From Gammaproteobacteria bacterium (GTDB taxonomy: Bacteria; Pseudomonadota; Gammaproteobacteria; S012-40): a stretch of DNA of 64,000 nt. This document shows positions 47,232-62,805 of this stretch, one piece after another. The DNA lies in contig JAOUMY010000001.1 of the NCBI GenBank assembly GCA_029881255.1, forward strand, positions 620,001 to 684,000, in the 5' to 3' direction. The notes below the pieces were generated by a model. That model was not told the origin of the DNA. It saw only the letters and a program-made list of their open reading frames with translations, and made no database searches. Within the stretch, counting starts at the first letter, position 1. Every line of letters starts with the position of its first letter. Made by a program: the position numbers and the translations under genes.

Positions 47232-50081
47232 ATGGGAATTAATATGACCGCTTCCAACGGTAAAGTCGAAGTCAAGAACACTACTTGTTATATGTGCGCC
47301 TGCCGTTGTGGCATACGCGTCACTCTCAATGACGGCGTAGTGCGCTACATCCAGGGTAATCCCGAGCATCCATTAAATAAGGGTGTGATCTGTGCCAAGG
47401 GTTCCTCAGGCATCATGAAACAGTATTCACCGGCGCGTTTGACGCAACCGCTCAAGCGTAAGGAAGGCGCTGAACGTGGGGATTCTGAGTTTGAAGCCAT
47501 TTCCTGGGATGAAGCCTTCGACATACTCGAAAAACGTCTTGGCCATATTCGCGAAACCGATCCGAGTAAATTTGCATTGTTTACCGGCCGTGATCAGATG
47601 CAGGGTTTGACTGGTCTATGGGCACGTAATTTCGGCACGCCGAACTATGCGGCGCATGGTGGTTTTTGCTCGGTCAATATGGCTGCGGGCATGATTTATT
47701 CTATAGGTGGCTCTTTCTGGGAATTTGGTGGTCCCGATGTCAAGAAGGCCAAAGTCTTGATGATGTTTGGTACGGCCGAAGACCACCACTCCAATCCGCT
47801 CAAGATCCAGATTGGCGAATTTAAACGTAGTGGCGGGCGGTTTATCTCGGTAAATCCCGTGCGCACCGGGTACTCCGCAGTCGCCGACGAATGGGTGCCG
47901 ATTAAGCCTGGTACCGATGGCGCGTTTATCATGGCCATGATGCGCGTCATTCTTGACGAAGACCTATATGACAAAGAATTTCTAATTGACTACACCAACG
48001 CTGGACAGCTCGTCATTGATGAGCCCTTGCGTAATGACCACGGTATGTTGGCGCGCGATGACCACGGTAGAGAGTTGTGGTGGGATGGTAAGTCCGGCGG
48101 CGCTGTTCCGTTTAAGACCGAAGGTGCCGATGTCCAATTATTTGGCGACTACAAACTTGTTGATGGCACGAAAGTTAGGCCAGCATTCCAGCTTTTAGCT
48201 GATCGCATACGTGAATACACTCCGGAAGCGGCGTCGCAAATCTGTGGCATACCTGTGGCAGACATTTATCGCCTGGGTCGTGAACTCGGTGACACGGCAA
48301 TGAATCAAGGCTTCGAGATGCCGATGCAGTGGACTGATGCCTGGGGTAAGAAGCACGACAAGATCATCGGTCGTCCGGTCGCTTTCCACGCCATGCGTGG
48401 TTTGGCAGCCCATTCCAACGGTTTCCAGACTATTCGTGCCTTTTCGATGTTGATGACGATACTGGGTACGATAGATCGCCCCGGCGGTTTCCGTCACAAA
48501 GCACCGTATCCCCGCCCGATTCCGCCAGGGCCAGCGGTACCGAACAAGCCGGAAGACGTACAACCAGGTCGCCCGCTGAATGGTGCGCCCCTTGGTTCTC
48601 CCGCCAGTCCCGATGACTTATTCGTCGACGAAAATGGCAATCCTTTGCGCATCGACAAGGCCTTCTCCTGGGAACATCCGCTGTCCCTGCATGGCCTGAT
48701 GCACAATGCGATAACCAATGCCTGGCGCCAGGACCCGTACAAGATCGATACATTGCTAATCTTCATGGCCAATATGGCCTGGAACTCGACCATGAATACC
48801 TCTGACGTGCGCACCATGCTCAACGATAAAGAGGAAGACGGTACTTACAAGATTCCATTCCTGGTGGTGTGCGATGCCTTCCAGTCAGAGATGGTGGCCT
48901 ATGCGGATCTGGTGCTGCCAGATACGACGTATCTGGAGCGTCACGACTGTATCTCAATGCTGGATAGACCGATTTCGGAATACGAAGGTCCGGTCGACTC
49001 GGTACGTATCCCGGTGTTACCACCGACGGGCCAGTGCAAACCGTTCCAGGAAGTGCTGGTGGAATTGGGCAGCCGCTTGAAGTTTCCTGTCTTTACGACA
49101 GAAGACGGCAAGCGCAAGTACAAAGACTATCCGGAGTTCATTACCAATTTTGAAGTGACCCCTGGTTGCGGTATTGGCTTTCTTGCCGGTTGGCGCGGTA
49201 AAAACGGCGACAAATTCCTGAAGGGTGAACCGAACCCGAATCAGTGGAAGATGTACGAAGAGAATAACTGCGTGTACCACTACCACATGCCCGAGCACAT
49301 GCAGTACATGCGTAACTGGAATAAGGACTATCTCGACTGGGCCTATGATCACCTGTTGATCACCAAGAACGCGCCGATTATCCCGCATATCTACTCGGAG
49401 ATCGTGCAGCAATTCCGTCTCGCCGCAGAAGGCAAGCGTGAAGGCAAACAGCCACCGGAACACCTGCGCGAGCGCGTAAAAACATTTTTCGATCCACTGC
49501 CATTTTTCTATACGCCGCTGGAAGAGCAGCGTACGGATACGGATAAGTATCCGCTCAATGCACTGACACAGCGTCCTATGGCGATGTATCACTCGTGGGA
49601 TTCGCAGAACGCATGGTTACGTCAGATCCATACCTATAATTATTTGTATATGAGTCCCAAGCTTGGTGAGCAGGGCGGCTTTAACGATGGTGATTGGGTA
49701 TGGGTGGAGTCTATGCACGGCAAGGTGCGTTGCATGTGCCGTTTCAGTGAGGCGGTGGAGCCGGGTACGGTGTGGACATGGAATGCGGTTGGTAAGGCAT
49801 CCGGTGCATGGGGCTTGGAAGCAGACGCGAATGAATCACGCAAAGGCTTTTTGCTCAACCACGTCATCTCCGAAGAATTACCGCCAGGGCCTGAGGGTGA
49901 TCATATCTCTAACTCAGACCCAATTACCGGCCAGGCAGGTTGGTATGACGTGCGCGTACGCGTGTACAAGGCCGACGACAATGAGGAGCAAGTCAGTTGG
50001 CCACAATTCAAGACTCAAAAAACCGTCCCAGGTCAGCCGCAGCGTAAGAGCTTTCTGGCCTACTTCGCCGGTCGTAAATAA
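47232..50081 (+). CDS. soeA: Sulfite dehydrogenase molybdopterin subunit SoeA
   Basis: A 949-aa molybdopterin oxidoreductase with one N-terminal [4Fe-4S] cluster (TTCYMCACRCGIRV ... GVICAKG) and bis-MGD domains. The absence of a Tat or Sec signal places it in the cytoplasm, which fits SoeA of purple sulfur bacteria (sulfite to sulfate, quinone-linked) and distinguishes it from periplasmic polysulfide/thiosulfate reductases. A cysteine in GGFCSVNMAAG is a good candidate Mo ligand. The gene order SoeA-SoeB-SoeC matches. The start at 47232 is used; ATG 47244 with GGGA upstream is a credible alternative. Assignment to sulfite rather than polysulfide rests on context. Confidence 0.85.
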   Translation: MGINMTASNGKVEVKNTTCYMCACRCGIRVTLNDGVVRYIQGNPEHPLNKGVICAKGSSGIMKQYSPARLTQPLKRKEGAERGDSEFEAISWDEAFDILEKRLGHIRETDPSKFALFTGRDQMQGLTGLWARNFGTPNYAAHGGFCSVNMAAGMIYSIGGSFWEFGGPDVKKAKVLMMFGTAEDHHSNPLKIQIGEFKRSGGRFISVNPVRTGYSAVADEWVPIKPGTDGAFIMAMMRVILDEDLYDKEFLIDYTNAGQLVIDEPLRNDHGMLARDDHGRELWWDGKSGGAVPFKTEGADVQLFGDYKLVDGTKVRPAFQLLADRIREYTPEAASQICGIPVADIYRLGRELGDTAMNQGFEMPMQWTDAWGKKHDKIIGRPVAFHAMRGLAAHSNGFQTIRAFSMLMTILGTIDRPGGFRHKAPYPRPIPPGPAVPNKPEDVQPGRPLNGAPLGSPASPDDLFVDENGNPLRIDKAFSWEHPLSLHGLMHNAITNAWRQDPYKIDTLLIFMANMAWNSTMNTSDVRTMLNDKEEDGTYKIPFLVVCDAFQSEMVAYADLVLPDTTYLERHDCISMLDRPISEYEGPVDSVRIPVLPPTGQCKPFQEVLVELGSRLKFPVFTTEDGKRKYKDYPEFITNFEVTPGCGIGFLAGWRGKNGDKFLKGEPNPNQWKMYEENNCVYHYHMPEHMQYMRNWNKDYLDWAYDHLLITKNAPIIPHIYSEIVQQFRLAAEGKREGKQPPEHLRERVKTFFDPLPFFYTPLEEQRTDTDKYPLNALTQRPMAMYHSWDSQNAWLRQIHTYNYLYMSPKLGEQGGFNDGDWVWVESMHGKVRCMCRFSEAVEPGTVWTWNAVGKASGAWGLEADANESRKGFLLNHVISEELPPGPEGDHISNSDPITGQAGWYDVRVRVYKADDNEEQVSWPQFKTQKTVPGQPQRKSFLAYFAGRK

Positions 50082-50096
50082 GGAGTAGCCTGAGAC

Positions 50097-50717
50097 ATGA
50101 CACAACTAGCTCTCGTTATCGATTTGAATGTGTGCGTGGGTTGTCACGCCTGTGTTACCAGTTGTAAGGAATGGAACACCTCGGGAACAGCGGGACCTAT
50201 GCCCGATAACAATCCCTATGGCAAAGATCCCAACGGCGTATTCTTTAATCGCGTCCAGACGTTTGAGGTCGGTACTTTTCCGAATACGCAAACGATTCAT
50301 TTTCCAAAATCCTGTCTGCATTGCGAAGACGCGCCATGTGTCCCGGTATGCCCGACGGGTGCGAGCCATAAGCGCGCAGAAGACGGTATCGTGCTTGTCG
50401 ATTATGACAAGTGTATTGGATGTAAGTATTGCTCCTGGGCGTGTCCATATGGCGCGCGTGAGTTCGACGAACATGCCAAGGTAATGAAGAAGTGCACGCT
50501 GTGTGTGGATCGTTTGTATGACGAATCTCTGCCGGAGGCGGAACGTAAGCCCTCATGTGTAATGGCATGTCCGGCTAGTGCGCGTATTTATGGCGACGTC
50601 CATGACCCGGACTCAGAAGCATCACGTCGTATCCGCGAAAATAATGGTTATCAGTTGATGCCAGAAATTGGTACGCGTCCGGCGAATCACTATTTGCCGC
50701 GTCACATCAAGCGATAA
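50097..50717 (+). CDS. soeB: Sulfite dehydrogenase iron-sulfur subunit SoeB
   Basis: A 206-aa electron-transfer subunit with four [4Fe-4S] clusters, as in DmsB/PsrB-type proteins. The cysteine groups are CVGCHACVTSCKE, CLHCEDAPCVPVCP, CIGCKYCSWACP and CTLCVDR with CVMACP near the end. No signal peptide is present. It starts 15 bp after soeA with AGGAG at an ideal distance and precedes the membrane anchor gene. It relays electrons from the Mo centre to the quinone site of SoeC. Confidence 0.93.
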   Translation: MTQLALVIDLNVCVGCHACVTSCKEWNTSGTAGPMPDNNPYGKDPNGVFFNRVQTFEVGTFPNTQTIHFPKSCLHCEDAPCVPVCPTGASHKRAEDGIVLVDYDKCIGCKYCSWACPYGAREFDEHAKVMKKCTLCVDRLYDESLPEAERKPSCVMACPASARIYGDVHDPDSEASRRIRENNGYQLMPEIGTRPANHYLPRHIKR

Positions 50718-50734
50718 GAATACAGGAGTAAGTA

Positions 50735-51685
50735 ATGCATCCAGCGTTTTCCGTTATTTTCTTTACAACTCTTGCCGGCGCTGGCCAGGGTTTGTTTACT
50801 GCGTTATTGGTCGGGCAGATTTACGAATTGTCCGAGCCCATGGTTCAGTATGGAAATAATTTTTATTTTATAGGCGGCGTAATCGCCCTGGTGTTATTAA
50901 CTGCCGGCCTGATTTCGTCGACGTTTCACCTTGGTCACCCATTGCGGGGTTGGCGGGCATTTTCTCAGTGGCGTACCTCATGGTTGTCGCGCGAAATCAT
51001 CGCCCTGCCATCGTTTATGCTGATGGTGTTTATCTATACGGTTGCTCACTTCCTGCGCATGGATTACACCACGACGCTGGCCATAGGCCTGGTCGGTATG
51101 ATCTTCAATATTGGTTTGTATATTTGTACTGGAATGATTTACGCCTGTTTGAAATTCCTGCGCGAGTGGGCGACACCGTTGACGGTGATTAACTTTGTCG
51201 TATTTGGTACGGCATCGGGATTCTCTGTCGCGGCGGTATATGCAAGCCTGGAAGCGCCTGCATTGATTCAGCCTTTCGCCTATATAGCCTTGATTGCCAC
51301 CGTCTTTGGACTAATCACCCGCGGAATGGTGTTGTCACGTAACAAAGAATTGCGCGAGAAACCGACAACCACGGTACAGACGGCGATCGGTGTGCGTCAC
51401 CCCAATATCAAACAGCGTTCGATGGGGATGATGGGCGGTTCGTATAACACCAGGGAGTTTGTTCATGGTGCGAAAGAATCATTCGTACAGAATATCAAAG
51501 TGGTTTTCATGCTCACGGCTTTCGTTATTCCGGCCGGTTTGCATCTAGGCGGGATCATCACTGACATCACCCATCTGTACGCTGCTGCACTGGCGATACA
51601 CATGTTTGGATTGGTGGCAGAACGCTGGCATTTCTTTGCCCAGGTCAATCATCCACAGAATATTTACTATCAGACAGTAGGCTGA
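50735..51685 (+). CDS. soeC: Sulfite dehydrogenase membrane anchor SoeC (DmsC family)
   Basis: A 316-aa polytopic membrane protein of the DmsC-type anchor family with about eight hydrophobic segments. It passes electrons between the Fe-S subunit and the quinone pool. Characteristic features are the HPAFSVIFFTTLAGAGQGLF start, SSTFHLGHPLRGWRAFSQWRTSWLSREI near residues 62-90, and the C-terminal FGLVAERWHFFAQVNHPQNIYY. It begins 17 bp after soeB. A stem-loop with a T run follows the gene. Three subunits are thus complete and ordered; no molybdenum chaperone gene is adjacent. Confidence 0.9.
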   Translation: MHPAFSVIFFTTLAGAGQGLFTALLVGQIYELSEPMVQYGNNFYFIGGVIALVLLTAGLISSTFHLGHPLRGWRAFSQWRTSWLSREIIALPSFMLMVFIYTVAHFLRMDYTTTLAIGLVGMIFNIGLYICTGMIYACLKFLREWATPLTVINFVVFGTASGFSVAAVYASLEAPALIQPFAYIALIATVFGLITRGMVLSRNKELREKPTTTVQTAIGVRHPNIKQRSMGMMGGSYNTREFVHGAKESFVQNIKVVFMLTAFVIPAGLHLGGIITDITHLYAAALAIHMFGLVAERWHFFAQVNHPQNIYYQTVG

Positions 51686-58659: not shown

Positions 58660-59634
58660 ATGCAAAGGATGCCAGGAATGAGAGCTATATTTACTCTAAT
58701 CGTCATATTTGTCGTGAACAGTGCATTCGCCGTAGAGGAGCATCGGATAGCCGGACCAACGCCGAATCTTGCAAATCCCAACGTTGTACAGGTGAGTGAT
58801 CGGGTTTTTGCTATGGTCGGCGATATGGACGTGCCTAACAAAATCAATCAGGGTTATATCTGCAACTCAGTTTTTGTTATTGGGGAAGCTGGCGTGATGG
58901 TCTTCGATTCCGGTGGCAGTAAGCAAATTGGCGAGATGATTATCCGCGAAATTCGCAAACGCAGTGATAAACCGATTACCCACGTCTTCAATACTCACCA
59001 TCACGCCGATCATTGGATGGGTAACCAGGCCTTTATTGAGAGCAGCACAAAAACAAAGATTTTCGGACATGCTGTCATGATCGATACTGCACAGCAAATC
59101 GGCGATCAGTGGACAAAAATTCTTCTCGATATGACTAAGGGTGAAACCGCGGGAACCAGGCCTGTCTATCCTTCAGAACGGTTGCAGGGCAATGAAACAC
59201 TGCAACTGCATGGCTTGACGCTCAAGCTTTATCATCCAGCTCATGCTCATACAAAAGGTGATATTGCGGTATTGATAGAGGAAGAAAAAGTCTTGCTTGC
59301 AGGCGATATATTGTTCTATTTGCGCACGCCTGGATTTCAGGACGCCAGTCCAATGGGTAATCTAAAGGCATTGCAGGATCTGAAGCAGATGTCGTTTACC
59401 AAGGTGGTTCCCGGTCATGGGCCGGTGACTGACAAAAATGGGATCGACTATATGATTGATTATGTGCATCTGTTACACGATCAGGTAAAGCACTATTTCG
59501 ATGAAGGTCTGGCGGATTTTGAAATGAAAAATAAGATCGAGGTTGGCAAATATCGTCAAATGTCAGGCTTTGATGATCGCTTTGGCATTAATGTGAATCG
59601 TATGTTTCTGGAGGTGGAGGAATCCAGTTTTTAG
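58660..59634 (+). CDS. Exported metallo-beta-lactamase-fold hydrolase (SoxH-like)
   Basis: A 324-aa periplasmic MBL-fold protein with a signal peptide (to about residue 24, NSAFAVEEH). Zinc ligands are visible as THHHADHW (H-x-H-x-D-H), HAHTKGD, LLAGDILF and PGHGPV. The closest family I recognise is the SoxH-like group found in quinoprotein and sulfur-oxidation loci, whose substrate is unknown. Despite the fold, nothing indicates beta-lactamase function. The first ATG (58660) is used; ATGs at 58669 and 58678 are possible, and no ribosome-binding site clearly decides. Confidence 0.8.
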   Translation: MQRMPGMRAIFTLIVIFVVNSAFAVEEHRIAGPTPNLANPNVVQVSDRVFAMVGDMDVPNKINQGYICNSVFVIGEAGVMVFDSGGSKQIGEMIIREIRKRSDKPITHVFNTHHHADHWMGNQAFIESSTKTKIFGHAVMIDTAQQIGDQWTKILLDMTKGETAGTRPVYPSERLQGNETLQLHGLTLKLYHPAHAHTKGDIAVLIEEEKVLLAGDILFYLRTPGFQDASPMGNLKALQDLKQMSFTKVVPGHGPVTDKNGIDYMIDYVHLLHDQVKHYFDEGLADFEMKNKIEVGKYRQMSGFDDRFGINVNRMFLEVEESSF

Positions 59635-59806: not shown

Positions 59807-60799
59807 CTAAATGTCTTTCGCACAGCGAAATCCGACGTCCTCGCCCAGTACTTCAGGCTCGGCATACTGACGGGTTGCGCCGCGGAAGAAGTAGCTTATA
59901 GCGTAGTGGCCCACACCTCCGCCGCCACCGCGGATAACCTTGTGTATGGTGCCGAACTTTTCGTTTTGATTATTATTCCCGGGATAGGCTTGATACCAAT
60001 CGTCTACCCACTCCCAGACATTTCCTCCCAGGTCGTAGGCACCGTAATAAGATTTGTTCTGTGGATAGGCACCTATCGGGGCAATGCCTTCGTCAAACTC
60101 AGAATCGTCCCCTGTTTCAGTTTTCTCCGTATCCCATTGATTGCCCCAGGGAAATTCATTGCCATTAGGCCCGCGCGCAGCCTTTTCCCATTCCGCTTCT
60201 GTAGGCAGTCGTTGACCACGCCACTTGCAATACGCGTCGGCGTCATGCCAGCTCACCCCTGTAGCGGGATAGACGTCTAGCTCGGCTTGTTTCTTTTTCA
60301 TTTCCTCGATTATGGCGGCACGACTCATTTTGGTGGTGTCCATATCGAGTTTGAAATGTTCCGCAGCGATTTTACGAAACAAACCCTCTTCCATAGTGGC
60401 TGCCTCTTCCATAGTCAGCGCGTAGCCGTTTTGAAACCAATACATAGGTTTTTTGTGCTCAGTAGCACTTACGAATTCCTTGTACTGCTTGAGGGATACC
60501 TCGTACTGATCGATATAAAAATCTTTTAAATGCATCGTGTGTTGCGGGTGTTCATCCAGAAATAAAGGATCGGGAAATCCGTAGCGTTGTTGCAGGCCTT
60601 CTTTGTCTTCCTTGTCACTCCCGCGTATGAACTCACCAGCTGGGACTTTTACCATGGCAATATTTGCATGGCTTCCCTGAACAACCTGTTTCGCTTTTTC
60701 CGATTTAGCGGTAAGCGGTGCCTGTTCCTCATTCGTCGTGTTTTTGCTGCAGGCGCTAATCATTAGGCACAGAAATAGAAAAGGAAAAAGTGTTTTCAT
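59807..60799 (-). CDS. FGE-domain (SUMF1-like) lipoprotein without catalytic cysteines
   Basis: A 330-aa protein with a lipoprotein signal (LMISACSK, Cys17) and a formylglycine-generating-enzyme (SUMF1/EgtB) fold: MVKVPAGEFIRGSDK, GVSWHDADAYCKWRGQRLPTEAEWEKAARG, LGGNVWEWVDDW and the ending VGFRCAKDI. In true FGEs two active-site cysteines follow the GGS motif. Here that region reads IRGGGGGVGHYAISYFFRGA with no cysteine, so sulfatase-activating chemistry is not expected. It follows the cytochrome-FGE fusion gene by 9 bp in one operon and was perhaps derived from it by duplication. Confidence 0.85.
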   Translation of the reverse strand: MKTLFPFLFLCLMISACSKNTTNEEQAPLTAKSEKAKQVVQGSHANIAMVKVPAGEFIRGSDKEDKEGLQQRYGFPDPLFLDEHPQHTMHLKDFYIDQYEVSLKQYKEFVSATEHKKPMYWFQNGYALTMEEAATMEEGLFRKIAAEHFKLDMDTTKMSRAAIIEEMKKKQAELDVYPATGVSWHDADAYCKWRGQRLPTEAEWEKAARGPNGNEFPWGNQWDTEKTETGDDSEFDEGIAPIGAYPQNKSYYGAYDLGGNVWEWVDDWYQAYPGNNNQNEKFGTIHKVIRGGGGGVGHYAISYFFRGATRQYAEPEVLGEDVGFRCAKDI

Positions 60800-60808
60800 T
60801 TTTTAATC

Positions 60809-61816
60809 TCAATCACTGTCTTTGGCGCAACGAAAGCCAAAGGTGTCGTTTTTTGTACGGCGCGCGAAAAATGCGCGATTATATACAGGTGCCGAAATAC
60901 CGCATTTATAAAATGAGCAATCAAACCACGAACCACCCTTAAGTGTTTTGTATCGTTTACCGTAGTTCTCCGAGGCAACTTTGCTATTGGGGTAGGCCTG
61001 ATACCATGAGTCGGTCCATTCCCACACATTGCCCGTCATGTCGTAAACCCCGAATGGACTCCTGCCGCCTTCGAATGCGCCAACCGGCGTGGTGTCGCCA
61101 AGTTTGCGACCGAGTTCCAGCCAACGTAAGGGCATATTGGCGTTTTTTACTTCGAAGGTATTGCCCCAGGGATAGGTGCGTCCGTCGTGTCCTCGCGCCG
61201 CTTTTTCCCACTCGACATCGCTAGGCAATCGTTTGCCTGCCCACTCACAATATTCCTTTGCATCGTACCAATCGACGTAAGTTACCGGGTGATCTGCCTT
61301 GCCTTCCGGGTAATTGCGATTGACAAAATGTTTGGGTGATTTACGACGGGTTTCCTCAATAAAACGTTTGTATTGCAGATTCGTTACTTCATATTTATCG
61401 ATCAGAAAAGACCGTGTTTTCGCCGTGTGCTGAGGGCCTTCGTCAAACAGACGCTCATTTGTGCCGCGTATAAACGTCCCTGCCGGAACAGATGCCATCT
61501 CGTTAGGTTTGTCGCCTAAGCGAGACTCTGCGGAAAACATAGGGAATTGCATACCTAACACCGCTTTCCCCTCGTCCTTCTGTTCGACAGGATTCTGCGG
61601 AGCACTGGCGATGGTCTTTAGTTTGTGTTTGATTTCCGTACGCGTATGACAATTCAGGCAACTATTATCGTTATTACGAAGTATGGCTTTGATGTCGATG
61701 CCGTCGCTATGGCACTTAACACAGGCCTGGACGTGAAAATGGTCGGCTGGCTTTTCCATTGCCAAAACGGCAACGGAAAAGGCTAGCGAAATAAAAAAAA
61801 ATATTACTGATGTCAT
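60809..61816 (-). CDS. Diheme cytochrome c-FGE fusion protein
   Basis: A 335-aa exported protein from the ATG at 61816 (an in-frame TTG at 61864 is weaker). After a signal segment (about 1-20), two heme c motifs CVKCH (32-36) and CLNCH (53-57) are followed by a spacer and an FGE/SUMF1 domain (MASVPAGTFIRGTNE, TYVDWYDAKEYCEWAGKRLPSDVEWEKAARG, MTGNVWEWTDSW, GFRCAKDSD). It keeps a cysteine pair, C300-x4-C305, in the GGSWFDCSFYKCG segment, at nearly the position of the copper-binding cysteines of true FGEs. Upstream is a PfkB kinase gene and downstream the cysteine-less FGE lipoprotein. The substrate is unknown. Confidence 0.85.
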   Translation of the reverse strand: MTSVIFFFISLAFSVAVLAMEKPADHFHVQACVKCHSDGIDIKAILRNNDNSCLNCHTRTEIKHKLKTIASAPQNPVEQKDEGKAVLGMQFPMFSAESRLGDKPNEMASVPAGTFIRGTNERLFDEGPQHTAKTRSFLIDKYEVTNLQYKRFIEETRRKSPKHFVNRNYPEGKADHPVTYVDWYDAKEYCEWAGKRLPSDVEWEKAARGHDGRTYPWGNTFEVKNANMPLRWLELGRKLGDTTPVGAFEGGRSPFGVYDMTGNVWEWTDSWYQAYPNSKVASENYGKRYKTLKGGSWFDCSFYKCGISAPVYNRAFFARRTKNDTFGFRCAKDSD

Positions 61817-61828
61817 ATGGATTGTCGT

Positions 61829-61852
61829 CCGGTTGTCACACTGGACAACCGG
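61829..61852. other. Perfect stem-loop between PfkB kinase and cytochrome-FGE genes
   Basis: CCGGTTGTC (61829-61837) and GACAACCGG (61844-61852) form a perfect 9-bp stem with a 6-base loop, in the 44-bp gap upstream of the cytochrome-FGE start. There is no following T run on the minus strand, so it is not a standard terminator. It could limit read-through from the kinase gene or affect mRNA stability or translation. Confidence 0.6.
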
Positions 61853-61860
61853 CTTGTCGT

Positions 61861-62805
61861 TCAAGAAAAGCTTTCCAGACTGTGACCGAAGTTTTCCTCG
61901 TAGCGTTGTCCGAAAGACTGGCGAGTAAAACTATGGTTTTGTGGTCCGTGGGTTTCAATTTTTATTGCACCGCATAAAGATGCTATCCGACCCGTGGTTT
62001 CCCAATCCAGATCATGCATGAGCCCAAATAAAAGACCAGCGCGATAGGCGTCACCACAGCCGGTTGGGTCGTTGAGTTCCTTAGGTGTGGCACTAGGGAT
62101 CTCATGACGATGAGTCTTGGTGTATATGTGAGAGCCTTTACTGCCAAGCGTTACAATAAACGCCTCAGTTTGTTCGGCAACTTCGTGAGGAGACAAGCCC
62201 GTCTTGTTCTGCAACATCTCGGCTTCGTAATCATTAACCGTCACCCAGGTTGCCAATTCGATAAAGCGTTTCAATTCATCACCGTCGAACATTGGCATGC
62301 CTTGACCCGGATCAAATATAAACGGGATACCGGCTTCATAGAATTCCTGCGCGTGTTGTAACATACCGTCACGGCCATCGGGAGAAATAATGCCGATGCT
62401 AATTCCTTTCGCTGACTTTACCGAGTTCTCATGGGAGAAACCCATGGCACCAGGATGGAAGGCGGTGATCTGGTTATCGTCCATATCGGTTGTGATAAAG
62501 GCCTGCCCGGTATAGCTTTCCTTGATGGTCTTGATGTGTTTGCGACTGATACCGCACTCATCCATCCAGTTCGCATAGGGGCCGAAGTCGCTGCCAACCG
62601 TGGCCATAGGCAGGGGATCGCCGCCGAGCAGCTTCAGGTTGTAGGCGATGTTGCCGGCGCAGCCACCGAATTCTCTGCGCATCTCAGGCACCAGAAAGGA
62701 TACGTTTAGCATATGGGTCTTGTCGGGCAGTATGTGATTCTTGAACCGATCATGGAAGACCATGACGGTGTCGTAGGCATAGGAACCGCAAATCAAGGCA
62801 GTCAT
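61861..62805 (-). CDS. PfkB-family kinase (adenosine/ribokinase-like)
   Basis: A 314-aa carbohydrate kinase of the PfkB family. The N-terminal GGCAGNIAYNLKLLGGDPLPMATVGSDFG and the C-terminal catalytic motif DPTGCGDAYRAGLLFGL (with the catalytic Asp) are clear. Sequence character is closest to bacterial adenosine kinases, but the family also phosphorylates ribose or other sugars, so the substrate is not certain. It is the first gene of the minus-strand kinase-(cyt c-FGE)-FGE group. Confidence 0.85.
   Translation of the reverse strand: MTALICGSYAYDTVMVFHDRFKNHILPDKTHMLNVSFLVPEMRREFGGCAGNIAYNLKLLGGDPLPMATVGSDFGPYANWMDECGISRKHIKTIKESYTGQAFITTDMDDNQITAFHPGAMGFSHENSVKSAKGISIGIISPDGRDGMLQHAQEFYEAGIPFIFDPGQGMPMFDGDELKRFIELATWVTVNDYEAEMLQNKTGLSPHEVAEQTEAFIVTLGSKGSHIYTKTHRHEIPSATPKELNDPTGCGDAYRAGLLFGLMHDLDWETTGRIASLCGAIKIETHGPQNHSFTRQSFGQRYEENFGHSLESFS

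Follow-up and report, generated by a model that had tools for sequence, protein, structure and literature searches.

The A and B genes of the window

The window, the whole stretch of 64,000 nucleotides of DNA that was analysed, contains two neighbouring genes on the minus strand, here called A and B, with the following features:

59807-60799, minus strand: gene B, an FGE-fold lipoprotein without the Cys pair (ORF, PF03781 at 189 bits, AlphaFold2 model)
59870-59932, minus strand: active-site-equivalent segment of B, RGGGGGVGHYAISYFFRGATR, Cys-free and with a GHY signature (alignments A2 and A4)
60749-60751, minus strand: predicted lipidated Cys17 of B, in a MISAC lipobox (sequence and lipobox rule)
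60800-60808, minus strand: gap of 9 bases between A and B, likely within a single transcript (ORF coordinates)
60809-61864, minus strand: gene A, a two-CXXCH region and an FGE-like domain (ORF, PF03781 at 205 bits)
60902-60919, minus strand: C-x4-C pair of A (C316, C321) in GGSWFDCSFYKCGISAP, invariant in alignment A1
61646-61723, minus strand: two CXXCH heme-binding motifs of A, CVKCH (61709-61723) and CLNCH (61646-61660), invariant in alignment A1

Gene B is an ATG-initiated ORF of 330 aa that matches the FGE-sulfatase domain superfamily (PF03781) with 189.1 bits over residues 48-328, and gene A matches it with 205.1 bits over residues 121-348, both above the Pfam gathering cut-off of 23.3. 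An AlphaFold2 model of B, built from an alignment of 75 rows, had a mean pLDDT of 89.8 and matched CalU17 (Z 28.1, rmsd 2.7, 236 residues), EgtB and ToxD (Z 26.4 for each), the S. coelicolor FGE (Z 26.0, rmsd 3.1, 226 residues) and human FGE (Z 24.9, rmsd 2.9, 223 residues), with an rmsd of 2.4 to 3.1 over 223 to 237 residues across these FGE-fold structures. By a simple lipobox rule, the N-terminus, MKTLFPFLFLCLMISAC, contains a good lipobox, and lipidation is predicted at Cys17. The initial annotation had described B as an exported FGE-fold lipoprotein, encoded nine bases past A, and this description agrees with the ORF, the PF03781 match, the fold matches and the lipobox. Of the two roles it suggested for the lipoprotein, anchoring and substrate presentation, anchoring may apply to B in the window and presentation would be a putative role, but a recognisable lipobox was missing from more than half of the non-A FGE ORFs (present in 29 of 68 by the simple rule, a count in which some calls are doubtful and a few ORFs are not B-type). 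The term lipoprotein is thus true of B here and not of the B family as a whole. The active-site-equivalent segment RGGGGGVGHYAISYFFRGATR lacks Cys, as had been noted from the start. Its poly-Gly appearance is peculiar to the subtype of this B, while Gly-His-Tyr (GHY) is the family-wide signature, found in every one of the 62 ORFs picked out by the B motif rule, which itself already demands GH[YF].

The longest ORF of A begins at 61864 with a TTG that shares bases with the stop codon of a PfkB-type kinase gene (61861-62805); the ATG at 61816, which precedes a hydrophobic stretch, is the likelier start. With CXXCH motifs on a protein that appears by eye, from this N-terminal hydrophobic stretch, to be exported, A has the marks of a c-type cytochrome and probably carries attached heme. 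Two CXXCH are present in 58 of 59 A ORFs (the 53 A genes read plus six from named records, some likely from the same organisms), the exception being the A of L076, which has none. The N-terminal region also gave weak matches to c3, c7 and MtrC-like models, all below curated cut-offs, in 11, 12 and 10 of 12 members, respectively (best E of 2e-4, 2e-3 and 4e-4). The C-x4-C pair was found in all 41 A genes outside the window's family, which were retrieved with a whole-length profile, as well as in the 12 family A genes from which that profile was built. Each of the 59 A ORFs has exactly four Cys in its last 260 residues, the Cys motif being part of the rule by which these ORFs were selected. An AlphaFold2 model of A from 12 sequences reached a pLDDT of only 52.5.

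Co-occurrence, gene order and matched divergence

Co-occurrence of the two genes, the check proposed in the initial annotation, was analysed in a sample of 369 gammaproteobacterial genomes. A (E<=1e-90) and B (E<=1e-80) were detected in exactly the same 28 genomes, representing 22 genera and 12 families, and at these thresholds none of the 28 genomes with A was without B (Fisher p 1e-42, with genomes treated as unrelated and relatedness uncorrected). Within the window's family, 11 of the 13 genomes searched have A (G000 to G010), each together with B; G011 and G012 gave just weaker partial matches to the A profile, which were not counted. Rare adjacency elsewhere had been named as an argument against the pair, and the opposite was observed: for 50 of the 53 A genes read (one in the window, 11 from its family and 41 in 40 further loci), B lies directly downstream on the same strand. 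The 50 include two cases in which B is cut by a contig end (L205 and L225) and one in which the longest ORF overlaps A (L241). For the other three, A lies away from B, which is on another contig (L054 in G010, L055 in G007 and L206 in G075). Two A matches were left out of the count. One runs off its contig (L245), and the other, L244 (4760-5855), is an A fragment that lacks the heme part and is directly followed by just the C-terminal portion of B, a pair that is broken or chimeric and lies close to a contig end. Measured between longest ORFs, the distance from A to B was exactly -4 bases in 8 of 47 tabulated cases. The 9-base gap in the window makes cotranscription of A and B likely.

Two or three complete A-B pairs are present in each of thirteen genomes. 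Across 48 complete pairs, the distance matrices of A and B showed a correlation of 0.651. When partners were swapped within the 13 multi-pair genomes in 5000 trials, the correlation averaged 0.343 with a maximum of 0.547, none of the 5000 trials being as high as 0.651, and each of 21 single partner swaps lowered it. Since the swaps were kept inside one genome, species history was preserved, and the lowered correlations indicate that each A subtype is matched with its own B subtype. B partners with a lipobox were found with GGSWFDC-type A in 10 of 12 pairs and with GGSWW-type A in 8 of 36, these being related sequences that are not independent. Because the distances match partner by partner in multi-pair genomes, an A-B heteromeric complex, as the initial annotation suggested, is made likely. 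The matched divergence fits specific partners, and it would also fit block inheritance or transfer of a linked pair. Collectively, the co-occurrence in the same 28 of 369 genomes, the adjacency in 50 of 53 cases and the partner-matched subtypes provide good support for A-B as a dedicated two-gene unit.

A-B units also extend beyond the Gammaproteobacteria, to Nitrospirota (L076, as well as L080, where the end of the contig truncates A) and to a record assigned to Myxococcota (L083). The A of a Manganitrophaceae record has, 2.5 kb upstream, a GHY-type FGE gene whose start is lipobox-like. Four FGE-family genes lie in a row in L083 (5400-8812), namely A, two GHY-type genes and one GGSWGLSH-type gene, and by the rule the three non-A genes have a lipobox. 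In L077 (5860-6882), from a groundwater deltaproteobacterial MAG, a two-heme domain is fused to a Cys-less GHY-type FGE domain, not an A-type one. Because the two-heme domain sits on a GHY-type domain in this case, the roles of the subunits may vary.

Solo copies of B, with no A near them, were found in L044 (8513-9481, in the window's genome), L049 (7847-8779), L051 (11561-12502) and L053 (8202-9143). Near the solo B of the last three is a shared gene, 80 to 82% identical, which in L049 encodes delta-aminolevulinic acid dehydratase; Pfam assignments for the solo-B neighbours were ALAD, adenylate kinase, DUF938 and two-component genes. Around A-B itself, no neighbour group besides FGE genes recurred in more than 7 of 57 loci, which suggests that the pair works without local partners. 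By eye, its neighbours are mostly housekeeping genes, with small groups formed by an FMN-reductase-like gene (L039, L040 and L076) and by a small gene with one CXXCH (L230 to L233). Neither DsrA, searched as a sign of reverse Dsr (6 of 28 genomes with the pair against 111 of 341) nor NapC/NirT (12 of 28 against 98 of 341) was significantly enriched with the pair, so no link to a pathway emerged. A plasmid search gave no close relatives, all 465 (B) and 615 (A) matching records being below 60% identity.

Cysteine columns, phylogeny and candidate targets

In a MAFFT alignment of 75 proteins, the two catalytic Cys of the five canonical FGE sequences fall in columns 556 and 561. In each of the 13 A rows, Cys is found in columns 557 and 562 and in neither of the canonical ones. 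The 57 non-A rows have Cys in neither canonical column and mostly carry Gly and Ala at 556 and 561 (44 and 45 of 57). By alignment, therefore, neither B nor A has two catalytic Cys at the positions of a catalytic FGE of the SUMF1 type. The HMMER alignment of the A Cys pair was ambiguous, pairing it with the second catalytic Cys of human FGE and with the next one. The pair of A has FGE spacing but appears to sit one residue beyond both canonical Cys columns, and it may not be an FGE-type site.

The main IQ-TREE tree placed A (100/99) as sister to B (99/94), with 96/82 for A and B jointly, and put the five canonical FGE sequences into a separate clade (99/95); the bootstrap had not settled. The B clade includes the solo B copies and one other row. 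Redundant pairs were thinned among the tree rows, the GGSWGLSH-type genes (L077, L080 and L083) fell outside the filter, and the L005 and L007 rows are the same ORF. With a reduced set, support for A+B fell to 54 and a clade of A with the canonical FGEs was not rejected (p-AU 0.126). Members from L076 and L083 fall in both the A and B clades of the main tree, which suggests that the A/B split predates the spread of pairs over phyla. The sister relationship and the existence of solo B copies would also be consistent with A and B being two unrelated activities, linked duplicates kept adjacent by duplication and transfer without forming a complex. We regard this as very unlikely, given a split older than the spread over phyla, the presence of B in all 28 A-bearing genomes at the thresholds used and the partner-specific matching within genomes.

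A search for PF00884 sulfatases in the window's genome gave no match at E<=1e-10, and by this search the cognate sulfatase substrate expected for a catalytic FGE is missing there. At the same threshold, five of the 28 pair-bearing genomes are without a PF00884 match (G000, G075, G082, G087 and G296, the last 85% complete), and 23 have matches of some kind. Among 28 sulfatase-family loci read from pair-bearing genomes, which are the newly returned ones rather than every place listed, the motif C-x-P/A-S/T-R is present in two, L271 (G034) and L272 (G181). The family search, for which 25 loci were read, contributed CSPTR in L179 (G003); L188, from a genome that has no A-B pair, contains CAPPR in an ORF whose identity is unchecked. 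As judged by motif, candidate Cys-type sulfatases are present in three pair-bearing genomes (G003, G034 and G181). Sulfatase maturation as the role of A-B is weakened by the five of 28 genomes without PF00884 and by the rarity of the Cys-type motif in the loci read. If A makes formylglycine, its target in the five genomes would be something other than a recognised PF00884 sulfatase; such a sulfatase could be distant or missing from the assembly.

These data support the active/inactive pair of the initial annotation only in part: B is without the Cys pair. The activity assigned to A is put in doubt by the shifted Cys, by the grouping with B in the main tree (the clade with canonical FGEs not being rejected, p-AU 0.126) and by the lack of a PF00884 match in the genome. 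A role for A as a true copper-dependent FGE that forms formylglycine on a periplasmic protein and draws two electrons from its own hemes, with B as a SUMF2-like inactive regulator, appears rather unlikely. Such a role would account for the C-x4-C pair in all 53 A genes (12 of which built the profile) and for the two CXXCH of A, as each turnover of FGE requires a reductant that supplies two electrons, with the physiological reductant described as unidentified in excerpts of PMC12123546, and it has a precedent in SUMF2 (excerpts of PMC8067471). At odds with it are the displacement of the Cys pair by one residue in both columns, the main tree, in which A is sister to B and not to canonical FGEs (96/82), the five of 28 genomes without a PF00884 match and the motif in just 2 of 28 sulfatase-family loci; the non-rejected clade with canonical FGEs and the motif-based candidates in L179, L271 and L272 speak in its favour.

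A possible exported redox complex and its relatives

Like human SUMF1/SUMF2, A-B consists of two FGE-fold paralogues, predicted to act in an exported compartment, of which only one has a Cys pair, and B resembles SUMF2 in having an FGE fold without the Cys pair and being encoded with a Cys-bearing paralogue. The SUMF1/SUMF2 heterodimer, a precedent for an FGE-fold pair, is described in excerpts of PMC8067471. A-B differs in the fusion of A to a two-heme domain, the one-residue shift of the Cys pair, the organisation as a bacterial gene pair and the five of 28 pair-bearing genomes without PF00884. With canonical bacterial FGEs (S. coelicolor and T. curvata), the shared traits are the domain family, the fold (shown for B) and the C-x4-C spacing (A), while A differs in Cys-pair position, two-heme fusion and tree position. 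EgtB, SenA, PvdO, CalU17 and ToxD have the FGE fold in common with B, whose best structural matches include CalU17, EgtB and ToxD. B scored under the NCBIfam equivalog cut-offs for EgtB (117.8 against 360 bits), SenA (114.6 against 420) and PvdO (52.5 against 500), and both B and A were below every NCBIfam cut-off listed.

B also resembles PorK/GldK of the T9SS, which are Cys-less FGE-fold lipoproteins. According to excerpts of PMC12421860, PorK is a docking hub in the T9SS ring, with the regions of the substrate groove turned into a docking surface, and the B model matched its structure (9mzu_A, Z 23.1, rmsd 2.6, 219 residues). These likenesses, together with the lipobox on B here, would fit A and B both being non-enzymes, repurposed FGE folds in a PorK-like docking assembly whose hemes only wire electrons through the envelope. 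B is shorter than PorK (330 aa against a chain of 491), has as its partner another FGE-fold protein with heme motifs and reached only 79.6 bits against the GldK model (NCBIfam TIGR03525, cut-off 350 bits). As the conserved Cys pair in A and the conserved GHY in B also seem more than a scaffold needs, we judge a purely structural role unlikely.

On balance, we lean towards A-B being a dedicated exported two-subunit redox complex, with A as the heme subunit and B as its cognate Cys-less hub. The joint and mostly side-by-side occurrence of the genes in distant bacteria, some without a detected sulfatase, makes A-B look like an unstudied exported two-protein redox machine. Both proteins would be exported and A would bind B. 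A, with its small two-heme c-type domain and FGE-like domain with a Cys pair, would be the redox subunit; B would be an FGE-fold docking or specificity hub that pairs specifically with its own A and, in this lineage, may be held on the membrane by a lipid anchor. The hemes of A would conduct electrons into or out of the Cys pair; this pair, which perhaps binds Cu(I), would oxidise or reduce a thiol on an envelope protein. This target would be something other than a recognised PF00884 sulfatase, at least in genomes without one. A literature search on FGE/SUMF with cytochrome, heme or operon returned no such fusion or gene pair in the text it covered, and one matching paper, PMC7117923, concerns neither a cytochrome-FGE fusion nor the A-B pair in the excerpts it provided.

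A bolder proposal, which we find distinctly unlikely, makes A a self-reducing formylglycine-type oxidase and B its obligate, partner-specific substrate-docking subunit, with a non-sulfatase envelope target. The two-heme module, probably of low potential, would then give the pair of electrons for which known FGEs rely on thiols, and A could oxidise a thiol of its target in the envelope of a respiring bacterium; excerpts of PMC4505483 cover the role of thiols for FGE, as well as the use of FGE for making aldehyde-tagged proteins. If true, A would be an FGE linked to respiration, and the question of what reduces FGE physiologically would gain a natural answer. The natural FGE-like/two-heme fusion, which has a matched Cys-less partner in each of the 28 sample genomes that contain it, makes both electron supply and dependence on the partner directly testable, and it suggests that some bacterial FGE-fold pairs do something other than sulfatase activation.

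The window's genome contains a second adjacent FGE-family pair, of another subfamily (L056, 8137-10067, on contig C5 of G000); the first gene of this pair shares about 24 to 30% identity with B and A. In the window, 58660-59634 encodes a metallo-beta-lactamase-fold protein nearest to the SoxH-related 'quinoprotein relay' hydrolases (186 bits, cut-off 280). At 47232-51685 are genes for a molybdopterin oxidoreductase, a 4Fe-4S protein and a membrane subunit that by eye are sulfite dehydrogenase-like (SoeABC-like); as DsrA is present too, the genome is probably that of a sulfur oxidiser.
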